Part shown: piece by piece, positions 1,852 to 16,950 of the stretch
Numbering within the stretch: the stretch's first letter is position 1
Layout: every line of letters begins with the position of its first letter
Source of the DNA: Thiotrichaceae bacterium
Lineage (GTDB): Bacteria; Pseudomonadota; Gammaproteobacteria; Thiotrichales; Thiotrichaceae
Assembly: GCA_015490895.1 (NCBI GenBank)
Contig: WFWY01000110.1
Span: 1 to 42,360 of the forward strand
Length of the DNA: 42,360 nt
Reading direction: 5' to 3'
Position numbers and translations under genes: made by a program
The notes under the pieces: model-generated
Database searches by the model: none
The model's input: the letters and a program-made list of their open reading frames with translations, nothing else
Told to the model about the DNA's origin: nothing

Positions 1852-4654
1852 AGTCACGTACCTCGCCATCACCTTCTACATTATCCACGCAGCGCTGACA
1901 AAGTTCGGGATGAGTCTTATTCAATCCAACATTTTCACGATGATGCCAGCAGCGGATACATTTTTCATGCAGGGCAACCTCTGCCTTGATCCACAAGCCA
2001 GACTCACCGTCCACGGCGCTGGCGGTTTCTGGTGGTGTATCCGTCTCGATAACGGTTGCACCGGAGGTAATCAGCACAAACCGTAACTCATTCTCGAGTT
2101 TGCCCAGTACCTGACACCATTCCCCCTGACAGTAAATACTGACTTCTGCATCCAGCGATGAACCAATTTCATCATCGACCCGGAGTTTTTCCAACTGCTT
2201 GCTAACGGCTTCACGCACAATAAATATTTGTTGCCAGTCACTGGCACTGATATGTACGTTATCATCCAGCTCACGTAACGCTGTATACCACTGGGAAAAC
2301 AGCACATAATCTGTCTTTTCACCGGGCAAATAGCTCCAGATTTCCTCTGCCGTGAAACTGGTTATAGGTGCCAGCCAGCGCACCATGGCCTGCAAAATAT
2401 GAAATGCAGCGGTTTGTGCCGAACGTCGTGGTCGGCTGTTTGCCGGCATGGTGTATTGCCGGTCTTTGGTTATGTCCAGAAACAAACTGCTCATTTCAAT
2501 CGAGCAGAAGTGCAAAATCTCCTGATAGGCAATGTGAAACTGGTAACTGTCATAGGCTACCAGCAACTTTTGTTGTGTTTTGAAAGCCCGGTCAAGCGCC
2601 CATTGATCCAGTGACAGCATTTCATCATAGACTACCTGGTCGGTCGCGGGATTAAAATCACTCAAGTTCGCCAGCAAGTAACGTGCCGTATTCCGTATCC
2701 GACGGTAGGCATCGGCTGTACGCTTGATAATCTCATCCGAAACGGTCATTTCCCGACTGTAGTCGCTGGAAGCTACCCACAAGCGCAAGATGTCAGCCCC
2801 CAGTTTTTTGTTAATACTTTGTGGGGCAATGACGTTCCCTTTGGACTTTGACATTTTTTCGCCATTGGCATCTACCGTAAAACCATGTGTCAAAACTGTC
2901 TTGTAGGGTGCGTCTCCACGCATGGCAATCGCGGTTTTCAGGGAAGACTGAAACCAGCCACGATGTTGATCTGAGCCTTCCAGGTACAAATCTGCCGGCA
3001 AACTCAACGTGGCTCTGCGCTCAAGAACAGAGGCATGTGTCACGCCAGAATCAAACCAGACATCCAGTGTATCGGTCACTTTGTCATAATACGGAGCATC
3101 TTCACCCAGCAGCTCGGCTGAATCCAGCTTGAACCAGGCTTCCACACCTTCTTTATCAATTTTTCCGGCAATTTTCTCAAATAATGCGGTGGTATCCGGG
3201 TGTAACTCGCCTGTTTCCTGGTGGACAAACAGGGTAATTGGCACACCCCAGGTACGCTGTCGTGAAATACACCAGTCCGGACTACTTTCCACCATTCCCC
3301 TAATACGGGCTTTACCCCAGTCTGGCAGCCATGCAACCGTATCAATCGCATCCAGAACCCGTTGCCGCAGACCTGTTTGATCCATGCTGATAAACCATTG
3401 TGGAGTGGCTCTGAAAATCAAGGGTGTCTTATGCCGCCAGCAATGAGGATAACTGTGATAGAGCTTGTTTTGACACAGCAACCTGCCATGTTGCTGCAAT
3501 ACTTCCAGCACATGTGGATTCGCATCCTGCACTGACTCACCCGCAAACAAGAGGGTATTCGGTAAAAAATGACCATCACTACCTACCGGATTATCAATGG
3601 GAAGATCATATTTCAGACCAACCACGAAATCTTCTTGTCCATGGCCAGGGGCGGTGTGCACACAACCTGTACCGGCATCCGTTGTCACATGCTCGCCCAG
3701 AATAACTGGAACCCTGCGTTCATAAAACGGGTGTTGCAGTTGCAAACCTTCCAGTTCACTCCCCTGGCAGGTCATCAATACCTCATGTTCAGCGATCTCA
3801 GCACGCTTTAATACATCCCGATAGAGGGCTTCTGCCAGAATCAGGCGTTCTCCGGCTACCTGTACCAGTACATAATTCAGGGTCTCATGTACAGCAACAG
3901 CCTGGTTTGCAGGTAATGTCCAGGGTGTGGTTGTCCAGATAACGACTGAAATCTCCCCTTCACCGGGCAAAGCACCACAACGTGCCGCCAACGCATTTTC
4001 ATCGGTAACAGTAAAACGCACATCAATGGCATAAGAGGTTTTATCCTGGTATTCTACTTCTGCCTCTGCCAGGGCAGAACCACAGTCTACACACCAGTGC
4101 ACCGGTTTTTCACCCTTACGCAAGTGTCCATTGGCGACAATCCGACCGAGCGAGCGGACAATATCGGCCTCCGTCTGAAAGTCCATGGTAAGATAAGGGT
4201 TATCCCATTCCCCCAGTACACCCAGGCGCTTGAAATCCGCTTTCTGTAATTCAACCTGACTGTTAGCGTATTGGCGACAAAGTTCACGAAAGCGGGCAGC
4301 ATCGACCTTGACACCAACTTTACCCACCTTCTCCTCTACCTTGAGCTCAATAGGCAGGCCGTGACAATCCCAACCAGGAGTGTAAGGTGCATCAAAGCCG
4401 CTTAAGGTTTTACATTTAATAATAATATCTTTGAGAATCTTGTTGACTGCATGCCCAATATGGATGTTGCCATTAGCATAGGGAGGGCCATCATGCAGGG
4501 TGAAGTTTGGACGCCCGGCACAATGTTCGCGTAGCCTGGCATACAAACCTGCCTCATCCCAGGCTTTCAGCATTTCTGGCTCTTTTTGCGCCAGGTTACC
4601 TCGCATCGGAAATTTTGTTGCGGGCAGATTCAAGGTTTTCTTATAGTCAGTCAC
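1844..4654 (-). CDS. ileS: Isoleucyl-tRNA synthetase
   Basis: Class I aminoacyl-tRNA synthetase that charges tRNA-Ile and edits misactivated valine. Its 936 residues are the normal bacterial length. The HIGH motif appears as GNIHIGH near residue 62 and the KMSKS loop as GEKMSKSKG in the second half. The editing domain lies between them. The C-terminus carries a zinc finger (CIRCW near residue 900, then CQRC). The stop overlaps the start of lspA. ribF, the usual upstream partner, is absent; about 250 bp upstream is instead an unexplained segment plus a truncated MITE, so the promoter context has probably been rearranged. Confidence 0.98.
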
Positions 4655-12638: not shown

Positions 12639-14642
12639 ATGACATCTATACAAAATAACTATCACAGTGACACATGGACACGTGCCAGCAGCAACAGCCA
12701 TCGCTCTCACTCAAAACGTGCTGGCAATACAATGTCCAATGCTTTTCACGAGCACTTCGCATCACGCCGTCGCGGCAACCATGGCGGCAACCGCAGACAG
12801 TATGTTCGCCAACAAATGAGCCGGATGGTAAACCAGCAGAGCCAGAGCCTTCAGGCAGAAAGACAGGGACAGGAGCACCGACACGCATGTCCCGGCTTTG
12901 GCACGGTTAATGGTAACAACTCAGTTGACCAACAGATTAACAGCCTGCTGGAACAGATGGGTATACTCAATCAGGGTGAACCAGGGAACCTGCCGGGTGC
13001 AACCGACCCCTTAAATTTCCAGAATGATATCTCCGGATTTGATTTGAATGGAGTATTACAGTCACTCGGCTTAAACAGCCCGTCCAGCTCTGACCTCAAT
13101 GGTTTAACTGGACTGGAAGACATGCTAAACCAACTACTACAGCAACTATCATCAGGGAACAGGGACAACGCCCCCATGATGCCCCCGGTAACCATGATGG
13201 AAGACCGTATCGAAATCACCCTGGATACCAAGCCGATTTCTGGTGACACAACAGACTCAGATACTATCCCGTCTTTGCTGGACGACTTTGATCACAATCA
13301 GTTAAATGACCTGCTGCAAGCCTTTAGTCTGGATGAACTGGCTCAGATGTTGAGTGACGAAGGCACGACAGTCTCAGCCGATGAACTCATGCAGCTACTG
13401 GCTCAGTTAGGCCTCACAACCGACACTGATAATACGACTGAAACAGGCATGGACTCGGACAGGGACATGCCCATAAATGATACACCGATACCCGTTGAAC
13501 CCAATAATGGTATTGGAGATGGGGCAAACCCCATTACCACCGATGATAACGGTACTGTCCAGGCTCAGGCTATTCTGGATAGCCTGGATAGTGGCCAGCT
13601 GGCTAACTTATTACAGATGTTCAGTCTGGACGACCTGGCTCAAATGCTAAGCGATGAGGGAACTCAGGTTTCATCCGGTGAGCTTATGCAGCTACTGACA
13701 CAACTAGGACTTGCAACAGATAGCAGTAGCATGGACAGCGCTATGCCTGCTGATGGTTCTCCAGCAACTACAAATATCCCTTCCGCAGACATGATGACCA
13801 CATCTACGGATACAGGTACGGATACAGACACAATAGATGCAACAGCAGCAAATATCCAGACTCTGCTGGATGGCTTCGATACCAGCCAGCTCAATGACCT
13901 GCTGCAAATCTTTAGTCTGGATGAGCTGGCTCAAATGCTAAGCTCGGAAGGTACGCAAGTATCTGCCAGTGAGTTATCACTACTATTAACGCAACTTGGC
14001 CTTATTAGCAGTGGAACAGAGGCTGAGACAAACGCCGCTGACACCTCTAGCACGGCAGCGGAGACCTCATCTGATACCCCTTCGGTGAATACAGCAACAG
14101 GCAGCAATAGCACTGATGAAACACAAACATCCAGTACCAATGCAGACAACCCAACAGACAACACAAGCAATGCAGATATCCAGTCCCTGTTAAATGGTCT
14201 GGATGCAGGCCAGTTAAACGACCTGCTACAGGTATTTAGCCTGGACGAGCTGGCTCAAATGCTAAGCTCCGAGGGTACACAGGTTTCTGCTGATGAAATT
14301 TCCCTACTACTTGAACAACTTGGTTTATTAGGCCCTGATTCCGGCATTACAGATGCGGCATCAAACACCTCAACCGCGGGGACAATACCACCAGAAATAC
14401 CCTCTTCAACCAATACCCCTGCTGCGGAAAATTCCTCACCATCTGCTAATACGCCTACAACAACAGGTAGCAATGCCGATACCGAGTTACAAACATTGCT
14501 TGCTGAAAACAGTGGACTACTAGCCAATGTTTTTGACCTGTTTAGCCCACAGGAACTTTCCGATGCCTTAGCGCAGGAAGGCACGGATATTTCAGCCGGA
14601 GACCTGACAGCACTGCTTGGGCAATTAGGTATTAAAGCCTGA
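12639..14642 (+). CDS. Large acidic protein with five ~50-residue repeats, unknown function
   Basis: 667 residues, not recognised. Residues 1-95 are basic and rich in His, Arg, Asn and Gln. Residues 96-172 contain degenerate leucine-rich material. Five repeats follow at about 210-259, 309-358, 406-455, 514-563 and 617-666. The core reads QLNDLLQIFSLDELAQMLS, then EGTQVSASELSLLLTQLGL; the fifth is divergent. Linkers of ~50 residues are rich in Thr, Ser, Asp and Asn. Repeats are predicted helical, and the pattern hydrophobic helix, Gly, Val, Ser-x-x-Glu-Leu, helix recalls an EF-hand without most calcium ligands; this is inference. There is no signal peptide, membrane segment or RTX nonapeptide. 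One Cys (residue 84). The start has GGAG at -7. It is monocistronic, with MITEs directly after the stop. Confidence 0.85.
   Translation: MTSIQNNYHSDTWTRASSNSHRSHSKRAGNTMSNAFHEHFASRRRGNHGGNRRQYVRQQMSRMVNQQSQSLQAERQGQEHRHACPGFGTVNGNNSVDQQINSLLEQMGILNQGEPGNLPGATDPLNFQNDISGFDLNGVLQSLGLNSPSSSDLNGLTGLEDMLNQLLQQLSSGNRDNAPMMPPVTMMEDRIEITLDTKPISGDTTDSDTIPSLLDDFDHNQLNDLLQAFSLDELAQMLSDEGTTVSADELMQLLAQLGLTTDTDNTTETGMDSDRDMPINDTPIPVEPNNGIGDGANPITTDDNGTVQAQAILDSLDSGQLANLLQMFSLDDLAQMLSDEGTQVSSGELMQLLTQLGLATDSSSMDSAMPADGSPATTNIPSADMMTTSTDTGTDTDTIDATAANIQTLLDGFDTSQLNDLLQIFSLDELAQMLSSEGTQVSASELSLLLTQLGLISSGTEAETNAADTSSTAAETSSDTPSVNTATGSNSTDETQTSSTNADNPTDNTSNADIQSLLNGLDAGQLNDLLQVFSLDELAQMLSSEGTQVSADEISLLLEQLGLLGPDSGITDAASNTSTAGTIPPEIPSSTNTPAAENSSPSANTPTTTGSNADTELQTLLAENSGLLANVFDLFSPQELSDALAQEGTDISAGDLTALLGQLGIKA
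13266..14636 (+). repeat. Five coding repeats, ~150 bp each, ~300-bp period
   Basis: Units at about 13266-13415, 13563-13712, 13854-14003, 14178-14327 and 14487-14636. The first four share much DNA identity (for example CTGGCTCAAATGCTAAGC in several), which suggests recent duplication or gene conversion; the fifth is old. Linkers vary in length and sequence. Confidence 0.85.
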
Positions 14643-14705: not shown

Positions 14706-14873
14706 TTAAGGAGCCTCTGATTAAGTCTGAGTGGAATTTCTCGATTGATAGAATTGTTCAGTTTTTGCTTATAAATGGAGCTAATCGTCACTCTATTAGG
14801 GAGATTTTTAAGCAAAAAATGGGCGATTCTAGCTTCGAGAAAACCGCCCACGACTTATTCAGAGGCTCCTTAA
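14706..14873 (+). mobile_element. MITE, subfamily B, full-length copy
   Basis: 168 bp bounded by TTAAGGAGCCTCTGATTAAG and its inverted copy CTTATTCAGAGGCTCCTTAA, the best-preserved ends in the window. The interior frame stays open (DRIVQFLLINGANRHSI). The stop codon of the convergent hslO gene (14870-14872) lies wholly inside the right terminal repeat. Confidence 0.9.
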
Positions 14874-15781
14874 TGTAATGTCGGATTTCCAGAAGAATCA
14901 AGCCCGCCTTCACGAGAAAAGACGTTTTCTATATCAACCTGATCTAACTCATAATGCTGATTGCAAAACTCACAATCAACACTGACCTTACCCTGCTCAG
15001 CAAGAATTTCTTGAACTTCTTTTTTGCCCAGTGAGAACACGGCTTTTTCTATTTTCTGCTGCGAACAGTTACATTCAAAGCGTAACGGTTTGGCAGCATA
15101 CAAACGCAACTCTTCTTTATGGTACAGCCGATATAACAACGTCTTCGCATCCAGCCCCAGCAACTCGTCATCCGTCAAAGTTCCAGCTAAAGCTGTCGCA
15201 TGCTGCCAGTTACTCTCCCTGTCTTCAGCCGCTTCGTCGCACCCCCCCGGCAAACTTTGCAACATCAGCCCCGCTACACGTTGCTCACTAACCGCCAGCC
15301 ATAAACGTGTATACAACTGCTCAGACTGGGCAAAATAACCTCCCATACAGTCCGCCAGTGATGTGCCCTGTAACGACACCAGGCTTTGATAGCGCTCACC
15401 TTGTTGCTGTCCTGGTTTGGGCGTGTTTTCAACTGTTATCACCATTGTGCCAGTACCGAACAGCTCGCTAAAAGGAGCATTCTCAATAATCTCACCCTGC
15501 CAATGAGCAATACCCCGCAAGGCTCCCTCTGAACTTGCCTGTACTACCAGCATAGTAACCGGATATGTACCCTGAATCTGCATCACCAGTGAACCTTTAA
15601 ATTTTAACGACTCTGCCAGCAAACCAACAGCTGCCAGTGCCTCACCCAGCACACCTTGCACTGCTCCGGGATAATCGGCAGTCCGGCAAATAGCTTGCCA
15701 GGAAGATTCGAGTTGCAACCATTCGCCACGAATATTCAGGTTTTCAAGCAGGAAACGGTGAATTTTATCGGTCATCATCAA
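14870..15781 (-). CDS. hslO: Hsp33 redox-regulated chaperone
   Basis: Cytoplasmic holdase activated by oxidation, protecting proteins during oxidative and heat stress. 303 residues, normal length. The redox-sensing zinc centre is intact: C237 and C239 (FECNCS), C270 and C273 (CEFC). Upstream, GYFAQSEQL and QSLPGG are typical of the N-terminal substrate-binding domain. Start within MMMTDK is uncertain by two codons. The stop codon is supplied by a MITE terminal repeat, which may have changed the last residues. Divergent from the DMT transporter leader. Confidence 0.95.
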   Translation of the reverse strand: MMMTDKIHRFLLENLNIRGEWLQLESSWQAICRTADYPGAVQGVLGEALAAVGLLAESLKFKGSLVMQIQGTYPVTMLVVQASSEGALRGIAHWQGEIIENAPFSELFGTGTMVITVENTPKPGQQQGERYQSLVSLQGTSLADCMGGYFAQSEQLYTRLWLAVSEQRVAGLMLQSLPGGCDEAAEDRESNWQHATALAGTLTDDELLGLDAKTLLYRLYHKEELRLYAAKPLRFECNCSQQKIEKAVFSLGKKEVQEILAEQGKVSVDCEFCNQHYELDQVDIENVFSREGGLDSSGNPTLH

Positions 15782-15824
15782 AGCTATTTTTAGTCATAAA
15801 ACAGGGATTCTATCGTGCTGTCGA

Positions 15825-15853
15825 GTGTCTGTCCTGAAAAACTCTGTTACACT
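15825..15853 (+). promoter_or_regulatory. Candidate promoter of the leader/DMT transporter unit
   Basis: TGTTACACT at 15845-15853 gives an extended -10 (TG-n-TACACT); a -35-like TGTCCTG lies about 17 bases upstream. The predicted start is near 15860, at or next to the ATG of the leader ORF. Confidence 0.4.
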
Positions 15854-15859
15854 GTGTTC

Positions 15860-15943
15860 ATGTACCCCGTAAAGAACATTCTTCTACTCAAACTCTGGCG
15901 AGCCAGCGCCCTGAACGCAGCCAGACGCCCTCTTATTCTCTAA
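15860..15943 (+). CDS. Possible leader peptide, 27 codons, leucine-rich
   Basis: An ATG-TAA frame of 27 codons between a good extended -10 and the DMT transporter. Seven of 27 residues are Leu (NILLLKLW near the start) and the end is RRPLIL. The stop is 8 bases before the first arm of a set of competing hairpins, the geometry of attenuation leaders. No ribosome site is visible, and the predicted transcript start is close to the ATG, so translation would be leaderless or weak. I infer a regulatory role from position only; it may be a chance frame. Confidence 0.35.
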   Translation: MYPVKNILLLKLWRASALNAARRPLIL

Positions 15944-15950
15944 AAAACAC

Positions 15951-16018
15951 GGCTGCGGGAACCACTCCCACAGCCTATGACTGGATTCCCGCAGCACGAC
16001 TAAAAGCACAAGGAATCC
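15951..16018 (+). promoter_or_regulatory. Competing hairpins that could gate the DMT transporter ribosome site
   Basis: Arm 1 GGCTGCGGGA (15951-15960) can pair with arm 2 TCCCACAGCC (15966-15975, one mismatch), or, shifted by one base, with arm 3 TTCCCGCAGC (15986-15995, perfect 10 bp). Arm 3's neighbour GGATTCC (15983-15989) is also the exact complement of GGAATCC (16012-16018), which contains the ribosome site of the gene at 16021. So 1:2 pairing frees arm 3 to hide the ribosome site and 1:3 pairing exposes it. No U-tract is present, so control would be translational. Confidence 0.5.
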
Positions 16019-16020
16019 GC

Positions 16021-16950
16021 ATGACCCGCCCTATTTCCACACCTGCCTCTTCTGAGCACGTCCAGTTTCGCTCCGGCATCCTGTTTGCCATTACCGGGAC
16101 AGCACTGTTCTCCCTTAAATCCATTTTTATTAAACTGGCCTTTCAGGAAGATATTGATGCCACCACACTACTCACCCTGCGTATGTTAATCGCGCTACCG
16201 TTTTATCTCTTTATCTTGTTATATGCCATCAAAACCCGGCCTGGCAAGGCGGCGAAATTATCGTATGAAAATATCCTGCAAATAGCTGGCCTGGGATTTC
16301 TTGGCTACTATCTGGCATCCTATCTGGACTTTGCAGGGCTGACCTTCATCTCTGCCCAGCTGGAGCGCCTCACCCTGTTTACCTACCCCATTATGGTTGC
16401 CCTGCTAAGCTGGTTCTTTTTCAGGGAAAAAATCACCCTGAATACCATACTCTCTCTGCTTTTAAGCTATCTGGGTATCAGCTTTTTATTTGCCACCGAA
16501 GCTACGACCTATTCCACCCAGGCGCACACTGCACAGGGAACACTACTGGTCGCAGGTGCAGCCTTGAGCTTTGCGTTTTACGTGATCTTCAGTAAAACCC
16601 ATATTACCCGCCTGGGTAGTCTGATTTTTACCAGTATCGCCATGATCGCTTCACTGCTCTTTGTCCTCGTGCAATTCTTTGCGACGCATAACGCCACAGA
16701 CCTGCTGGTTTCCAAAAAGCTCTGGGCACTGGCATTCATGCTTGCCCTGTTCTGTACTGTCATCCCCAGTTTCTTTACCAGCGAAGCCATTCACCGTATT
16801 GGTGCAACCCGCACCAGTATCACCGGAACCCTTGGTCCGGTGATCACTATCATTCTGGCTGTGAAGGTACTGGGCGAACCATTTGGCTGGGAGCAAGTAG
16901 TGGGGTTGTTGCTGGTATTGCTAGGAGTGAGCTTGCTGAGAGCAAAATAA
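16021..16950 (+). CDS. DMT-superfamily (EamA) transporter
   Basis: 309 residues with ten hydrophobic segments in two five-helix halves, the usual EamA x2 layout; the N-terminal ~18 residues are cytosolic. TALFSLKSIFIKLAF and LGPVITIILAVKVLGEPFGW are typical of the first and last helices. Members export or import small metabolites, often amino acids; the substrate cannot be read from sequence. AGGA lies 6 bases before the ATG and lies in a predicted pairing with the leader. A leucine-rich leader ORF upstream hints at branched-chain amino acids, but only weakly. Confidence 0.85.
   Translation: MTRPISTPASSEHVQFRSGILFAITGTALFSLKSIFIKLAFQEDIDATTLLTLRMLIALPFYLFILLYAIKTRPGKAAKLSYENILQIAGLGFLGYYLASYLDFAGLTFISAQLERLTLFTYPIMVALLSWFFFREKITLNTILSLLLSYLGISFLFATEATTYSTQAHTAQGTLLVAGAALSFAFYVIFSKTHITRLGSLIFTSIAMIASLLFVLVQFFATHNATDLLVSKKLWALAFMLALFCTVIPSFFTSEAIHRIGATRTSITGTLGPVITIILAVKVLGEPFGWEQVVGLLLVLLGVSLLRAK

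Follow-up and report, generated by a model that had tools for sequence, protein, structure and literature searches.

E. coli trpL and the other proteobacterial and actinobacterial trp leaders comprise a short ORF with one or several Trp codons, a feature shared by the leader described here, which precedes an EamA-family transporter gene in a stretch of 42,360 nucleotides from a Thiotrichaceae bacterium (contig WFWY01000110.1; hereafter the window, meaning the whole stretch analysed). In E. coli trpL, modelled side by side with the window leader, the end of the ORF likewise forms a helix with the 5' arm of the following hairpin, which is allowed when the ribosome stalls at Trp and blocked when it has moved further on; the intrinsic terminator of trp attenuators also has an apparent counterpart in four relatives of the window leader. 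The leader ORF of Sinorhizobium meliloti trpL is leaderless, its first base being the RNA 5' end, a property predicted here as well, and controls trpE(G) by transcription attenuation, unlike the window leader (PMC7298713). Trp attenuators control trp biosynthesis, whereas the window leader precedes a transporter gene; the family of the window further differs in having mostly one Trp codon (23/25 leaders), in the extra arms 3 and 4, which are able to close the start site, and in the lack of an Rfam match.

Translational attenuators of antibiotic-resistance genes (ermB, ermC and cat type) share with the window leader a short ORF, helices that alternate and sequestration of the ribosome-binding site. 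Their signal is a drug-stalled ribosome, whereas the window leader would respond to an amino-acid codon. Actinobacterial T-boxes that sequester the Shine-Dalgarno sequence, and LEU elements, place amino-acid genes under RNA control at translation initiation, as proposed here (PMC1262725); nevertheless, T-boxes respond to tRNA itself, LEU elements are pseudoknots, and neither has the window layout. At the gathering score, Rfam gave no match in the window and only a TPP riboswitch in 17 related loci (3378-3478, plus strand of locus L009, near the ortholog and unrelated to the leader), and the Trp leader model RF00513 gave no window match at E up to 5, where the only two matches were chance ones to other families on the minus strand. 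A Trp leader before an EamA transporter is not described among the literature matches listed, although older comparative studies of proteobacterial attenuators, cited in PMC1262725, may mention one. Since no match was found in Rfam or among the literature matches listed, and since most genes controlled by the Rfam attenuators surveyed in 2013 encode biosynthetic enzymes (PMC3766115), the pairing of a Trp leader with a transporter is taken as a variation on a familiar type of system.

The leader and the transporter gene (Table 1) are separated by 77 bases, between the ORF at 15860-15943 and the gene start ATG at 16021, and the upstream neighbour is an Hsp33 gene on the opposite strand (14870-15781). 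The initial annotation had proposed a 27-codon ORF followed by mutually exclusive pairings ahead of an EamA gene, and all of these elements are present in the sequence: arm 1 (15952-15961) pairs with arm 3 (15986-15995) at 10/10 positions, arm 3 (15983-15989, GGATTCC) with 16012-16018 (GGAATCC), overlapping the transporter Shine-Dalgarno sequence, at 7/7, and arm 1 (15951-15960) with arm 2 (15966-15975) at 9/10. It had included neither arms A and B inside the ORF nor the relatives with a terminator. Arm B (15916-15922) pairs with arm 1 (15951-15957) at 7/7 positions, and the pair inside the ORF, 15894-15899/15920-15925, spans the Trp codon, while the whole of arm 1 (15951..15963) can pair with either arm 2 or arm 3.

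Table 1. Coordinates of the leader elements and the transporter gene in the window
Feature	Position	Strand	Basis or remark
-10-like hexamer TACACT	15848..15853	+	6 nt 5' of leader ATG
Leader ORF, 27 codons, MYPVKNILLLKLWRASALNAARRPLIL	15860..15943	+	ATG 15860, TAA 15941-15943; Trp-containing ORFs upstream of orthologs
UGG, proposed regulatory Trp codon	15896..15898	+	Trp conservation and ribosome-position modelling
Arm A, UCUGGC	15894..15899	+	Complement 15920-15925; holds Trp codon; inside leader ORF
Arm B, CGCAGCCAGA	15916..15925	+	Inside leader ORF; partner arm A or arm 1a
Arm 1 (1a GGCUGCG + 1b GGGAACC)	15951..15963	+	1a with B, 1b with arm 3
Arm 2	15964..15975	+	Hairpin 1:2 with arm 1; equivalent hairpin terminator-like in four relatives
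Arm 3	15983..15995	+	Alternates between arm 1 and arm 4
Arm 4 and transporter Shine-Dalgarno, AAGGAATCC	16010..16018	+	Complementarity to arm 3
EamA-family (DMT) transporter, 309 aa	16021..16950	+	PF00892, 132.9 bits

The transporter scores 132.9 bits against PF00892 (EamA/DMT; cut-off 28.2) and only 26.3 bits against NF050091, the model of the aromatic amino-acid exporter YddG (cut-off 300); among solved structures, the sole sequence match at E up to 10 is 7b0k (LicB/DMT permease), at E 0.015. Further observations in this part of the window comprise (i) a perfect 8-nt inverted repeat, TCGTGCTG/CAGCACGA, at 15813-15820 and 15992-15999, one arm of which lies 5' of the predicted transcription start; (ii) the resemblance of hairpin 1:2 (15951-15975), read on the minus strand with its T-run, to an intrinsic terminator, for which the ORF list shows no convincing gene immediately ahead on that strand; and (iii) a 667-aa ORF (12639-14642, plus strand) with several copies of a repeat like LDGLDAGQLNDLLQVFSLDELAQMLSSEGTQVSADEISLLLEQLGL and only marginal Pfam matches.

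Of 63 genomes from the window's family, 46 have an ortholog of the transporter (E up to 1e-20), the order-level search having covered the same 63 genomes, and 25 family loci display an upstream ORF with an in-frame Trp codon together with recognisable arms; the sequence of locus L017 is identical to the named record L036, labelled Thiotrichaceae. A recognised leader is missing in 21 of the 46 family genomes with the transporter, two of which (G010 and G028) hold gene fragments only. Outside the family, a Trp leader ORF precedes the gene in 16 of 50 loci of the same class (14 plus L092 and L101), some of the 50 having short upstream DNA; the boxed ORFs of L054, L055, L059 and L063 were excluded by eye for other start codons, distance or frame overlap, and the 12-codon ORF MISVHQRRYWRP of L065 was not counted either. 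In a family of another class, the leader ORF was found in 19 of 20 fetched loci, picked by eye for a Trp ORF, with L160 cut at the contig end and two further genomes with hits lying outside the 20. Two orthologs from another gammaproteobacterial family (L146 and L150) have short upstream Trp ORFs, MHHTFSYLWLVLVMPVAR and MIMTFMFTYLWLLLLNACSR, the former seeming to possess a Shine-Dalgarno sequence, unlike the 58 leaders checked.

A covariance model built from the 25 loci gave 26 hits of 59-95 bits in the 63 family genomes, with 50 candidates scored per genome under strict filters. The training loci account for 25 of these, and the 26th (G074, L116 at about 1460-1850) is a Trp leader before a degraded, internally shortened EamA copy, the next hits reaching at most 24.5 bits. 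Applied to 31 loci, class-level ones or family loci lacking a leader, the model gave nine matches, none convincing (best 13.9 bits, L072, E 0.007); because it does not recover the class-level leaders convincingly, the groups are united by orthology of the gene, by Trp and by layout. On a quick tree of 94 proteins, the leader label falls on both sides of the drawn root and requires 15 changes compared with 30.1 in shuffles, a pattern that fits an old element lost many times. The trpA gene is present in 58 of the 63 family genomes, most of which can therefore probably make tryptophan; G003 and G033 (loci L008 and L031) carry the Trp leader and transporter with no trpA match, an absence that is unsure in draft genomes. 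In the window's own genome, trpE is itself preceded by a 12-codon ORF with one Trp, MNQLNTCRWRVD.

The leader ORF is probably leaderless, with transcription predicted from sequence to start at or beside its ATG, because no Shine-Dalgarno core lies 5-13 nt before the ATG in any of the 58 leaders and a -10 box ends 6 or 7 nt before the ATG in 25 of the 39 leaders from the family and the class (13 have a different spacing and one lacks a box). Among 93 ortholog upstream regions, which are partly non-independent, 40 contain a Trp ORF whose ATG lies 5-10 nt past a -10-like hexamer, compared with 1.96 in dinucleotide shuffles. Neither of the two outcomes named by the initial annotation as contrary to it was found: the predicted start, at about 15860, lies upstream of 15951, and the ORF and the pairings are both conserved in relatives.

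The emphasis on leucine is where the initial annotation departs from these data. Its translational-attenuator layout, with the leader ORF, the exclusive pairings and the sequestered transporter start, is borne out in relatives, but the weight given to leucine is not supported. Most leader sets were chosen for holding Trp; the exception is a set collected with no residue required, comprising 49 promoter-adjacent ORFs in 45 loci, some of them nested, compared with 9.2 per shuffled set. Trp occurs in 43 of the 49, compared with 26% in shuffles, and is the most enriched residue (3.54-fold), followed by Thr (1.67-fold) and Leu (1.37-fold). A leucine-sensing leader would be in keeping with the 7 Leu among the 27 residues of the window peptide, with this slight Leu enrichment, with the presence of Leu directly after the first Trp in 47 of the 58 leaders, and with the window Leu codons just before Trp, which also permit helix B:1. 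It is nevertheless very improbable given the much larger enrichment of Trp, which the relatives keep, and the residue other than Leu after the first Trp in 11 of the 58 leaders; in addition, the codon after UGG may be preserved by the pairing of GGCU. The sensor is thus very likely the Trp codon at 15896-15898 and not leucine. The confidence expressed here for the sensor, and below for the start-site output and the direction of control, represents subjective odds.

Arrest of the TnaC type involves a Trp at a fixed distance from the stop codon together with other fixed residues. A nascent peptide that senses free tryptophan in this manner would accommodate the single Trp of 23 of the 25 family leaders, but the distance is not fixed, 2 to 18 residues following the last Trp in 39 peptides, no common C-terminal motif was seen among them, and the Trp position tracks the geometry of the RNA instead, which makes this reading very improbable.

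This geometry was modelled on RNA ending at the end of arm 1, with the nucleotides masked up to 13 nt beyond the A-site codon. The B:1 helix averages 8.5 bp for a ribosome at Trp (25 loci) and 2.3 bp for one that is ten codons further along (23 loci). In the family leaders it reaches, at the last Trp codon, 0.911 of its maximum compared with 0.657 at random codons (0/5000; 25 loci); with automatic hairpin detection, the best Trp codon gives 0.996 compared with 0.757 in the other class (0/5000; 18 loci) and 0.925 compared with 0.722 in the class loci (8/5000), these 14 loci still counting the low-scoring L094, for which a different hairpin was chosen, while no hairpin was detected in L152. For E. 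coli trpL the same model gives a helix of 9.6-9.7 bp with the ribosome at the Trp codons and of 1.1 bp with the ribosome at the stop. Because stalls upstream of Trp also allow the helix, Trp marks the downstream edge of a permissive stretch, at the far end of a plateau with no unique peak. In the window, B:1 measures 9.2 bp with no ribosome; with one it shortens from 7.6 bp at Trp to 4.0 bp five codons later and 1.1 bp close to the end.

After arm 2 has been transcribed, B:1 averages 2.9 bp with the ribosome stalled at Trp compared with 0.04 six codons on, and in the window hairpin 1:2 then prevails despite the stall (8.7 bp compared with 0.3 for B:1). The modelling thereby supports a switch helix permitted by the Trp stall, blocked further on and exclusive with the hairpin, on average and in truncated RNA, in all three groups; equilibrium folding with the full hairpin present does not display such switching. 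The notion of the initial annotation that ribosome progress sets the RNA fold is upheld in the relatives, but the opening and closing of the transporter start that it attached to this progress is not shown by folding.

The pairings themselves were assessed with hand-set arms in the 25 family loci, placed by eye with pairing in mind, and kinship among the sequences inflates the covariation counts. In B:1a, 145 of 150 cells are paired (97%), with 9 changed on both sides compared with 2.9 in shuffles; in 1b:3a, 113 of 125 (90%), with 15 compared with 7.2; and in 3:4, scored in 17 loci with arm 4 at the start codon, 112 of 119 (94%), with 11 compared with 3.5. None of 2000 row shuffles matches these values, although extra pair types show no excess over shuffles, and the 1a:3b pairs show no covariation excess at all (reached by 451/2000 shuffles). 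Arms 4 and 3 co-vary as GCGGGA/TCCCGC, GCGAGA/TCTCGC, GCAAGA/TCTTGC and GCCGGA with a matching arm 3; as the two arms change together, the transporter's second codon changes in step with the RNA.

A plain MAFFT alignment, unfitted to the model, gives 89.2% pairing for 1:3 (15 cells changed on both sides compared with 6.9; slid versions 34-54%) and 73.7% for 3:4 (12 compared with 4.9; slid versions 20-53%), and both helices also beat the shuffles in covariation score. On this alignment, hairpin 1:2 beats slid controls but mostly not shuffles and shows little covariation; the only five pairs predicted by RNAalifold all belong to it. In a scan of all 96 column pairs the second best, 15961:15986, belongs to 1b:3a, while the best (15904:15928) and the third (15894:15984) fall outside the proposed model.

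Folding of the window leader gives a z-score of -2.64, with 2 of 200 shuffles equally stable, so modest a value that, taken alone, it would accommodate chance pairings in a GC-rich leader with a meaningless ORF. The case beyond chance is stronger from the conservation and covariation in relatives, and these, together with the restriction of the leader to one gene, leave chance a negligible probability. A structured leader with a conserved hairpin could also be an RNA that binds a protein or, like a riboswitch, a metabolite, the ORF being incidental; Rfam, however, gave at the gathering score no match in the window and only the unrelated TPP riboswitch in the 17 related loci, the few invariant alignment columns sit in the arms, UGGC and the start, and the ORF and its Trp are conserved, so that such an RNA is about as improbable as leucine sensing.

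Two outputs are suggested by the leaders. In four class loci (L034, L072, L074 and L094) a hairpin that has a T-rich tail and an energy, from direct folding, of -12.7 to -18.5 kcal/mol lies between the leader and the gene; the terminator scan listed that of L034 and not those of L094, L074 and L072. When transcription has reached only the 5' arm of the hairpin, the antiterminator of these loci measures 7.1-11.6 bp for a stall at the first Trp codon, 0.2-5.2 for a ribosome at the stop codon and 4.1-8.1 with no ribosome. Equilibrium folding of the complete hairpin favours the terminator in each of the four for a ribosome at the first Trp codon, and therefore the effect of the antiterminator would be kinetic. 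The direction modelled for these relatives is the classical one, in which shortage turns the gene on. A T-rich stretch also follows closely after the A:B region in L018, L024, L026, L027, L028, L029 and L046 and might be a weak terminator.

In the window's family, no hairpin with a T-run was recognised between arm 1 and the gene, arms 3 and 4 being found instead, and an RNA arm that pairs with the Shine-Dalgarno sequence or start codon of the gene, as well as with an upstream arm, is present, as in translational attenuators. A start-site output is likely in this family. In the family of the other class, a search for arms 3 and 4 gave values below 0.05 for 1:3 in 7 of 18 loci and for 3:4 in 3 of 18, weak support drawn from a set in which several automatic gene starts look wrong.

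Folding of the full-length RNA favours 3:4 over 1:3 in 21 of 25 family loci in the absence of a ribosome and in 23 of 25 under a stall at Trp. On stalling, the start becomes cheaper to open in 9 of the 25 family loci and costlier in 7; among 14 class loci the corresponding counts are 7 and 5. In RNA that does not yet include arm 4, stalling raises helix 1:3 in 5 and lowers it in 7 of the 25. When B:1 is forced, 1:3 keeps at least 3 bp in 15 of 25 loci before arm 4 and in 2 of 25 after it. Thus the direction of control is fixed neither by equilibrium folding of the whole RNA under ribosome masks nor by folding of RNA that lacks arm 4, and control as proposed must be kinetic because static folding does not show it.

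Together, these results point to a ribosome-mediated tryptophan attenuator that probably controls the EamA transporter. Transcription would start at or beside the leader AUG, and the ORF would be translated in leaderless fashion. When charged tRNA-Trp is short, the ribosome would stop at UGG 15896-15898 and leave arm B free to pair with 1a; when tryptophan is plentiful, it would cover B, and arm 1 would be free to fold on arm 2. This sensing step, Trp stall as opposed to run-on, is supported by the comparative and modelling data. In the window's family, arm 3 may then pair either with arm 1 or with the Shine-Dalgarno sequence or start codon of the transporter, with a presumed effect on translation, whereas in some relatives hairpin 1:2 itself may act as an intrinsic terminator. 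Arm 1 would be bipartite, B taking up 1a while 1b binds arm 3. In the favoured scheme, shortage would let B:1a break hairpin 1:2, and 1b would hold arm 3 until a ribosome binds the start, so that the transporter is made; it would act on tryptophan or a compound related to it, import being the simplest case. Activation of the transporter by Trp shortage is favoured with moderate confidence, and the substrate and transport direction read from the leader are guesses.

The same sensor may work with the opposite sign, B:1 freeing arm 3 to close the start under shortage and an exporter being made when tryptophan is ample. As this sign would require, the mean length of helix 1:3 in RNA without arm 4 is 7.55 bp for a ribosome at the stop, 7.02 bp in the absence of a ribosome and 6.35 bp for a stall at Trp, but the differences are small; 3:4 wins in the finished RNA when B:1 is forced; and the protein weakly matches the YddG exporter model, albeit far under its cut-off (26.3 bits compared with 300). 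Given also the classical layout of the terminator-type relatives, in which the Trp stall allows the antiterminator, the opposite sign is unlikely, though with an appreciable chance. A broader version is rated slightly lower still: an old family of leaderless Trp attenuators attached to one EamA clade in at least two classes of the phylum, the output of which shifts between terminator and start closure, and which in the window's family may run the opposite way, uncharged tRNA-Trp switching an exporter off.

If true, the attenuator reading would tie a large transporter clade to tryptophan and give a testable guess at its substrate, and would extend a textbook mechanism, familiar chiefly in biosynthetic operons, to a transporter gene and to control at the start site. 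The occurrence of terminator and start-site outputs within one family would make the evolution of attenuation traceable.
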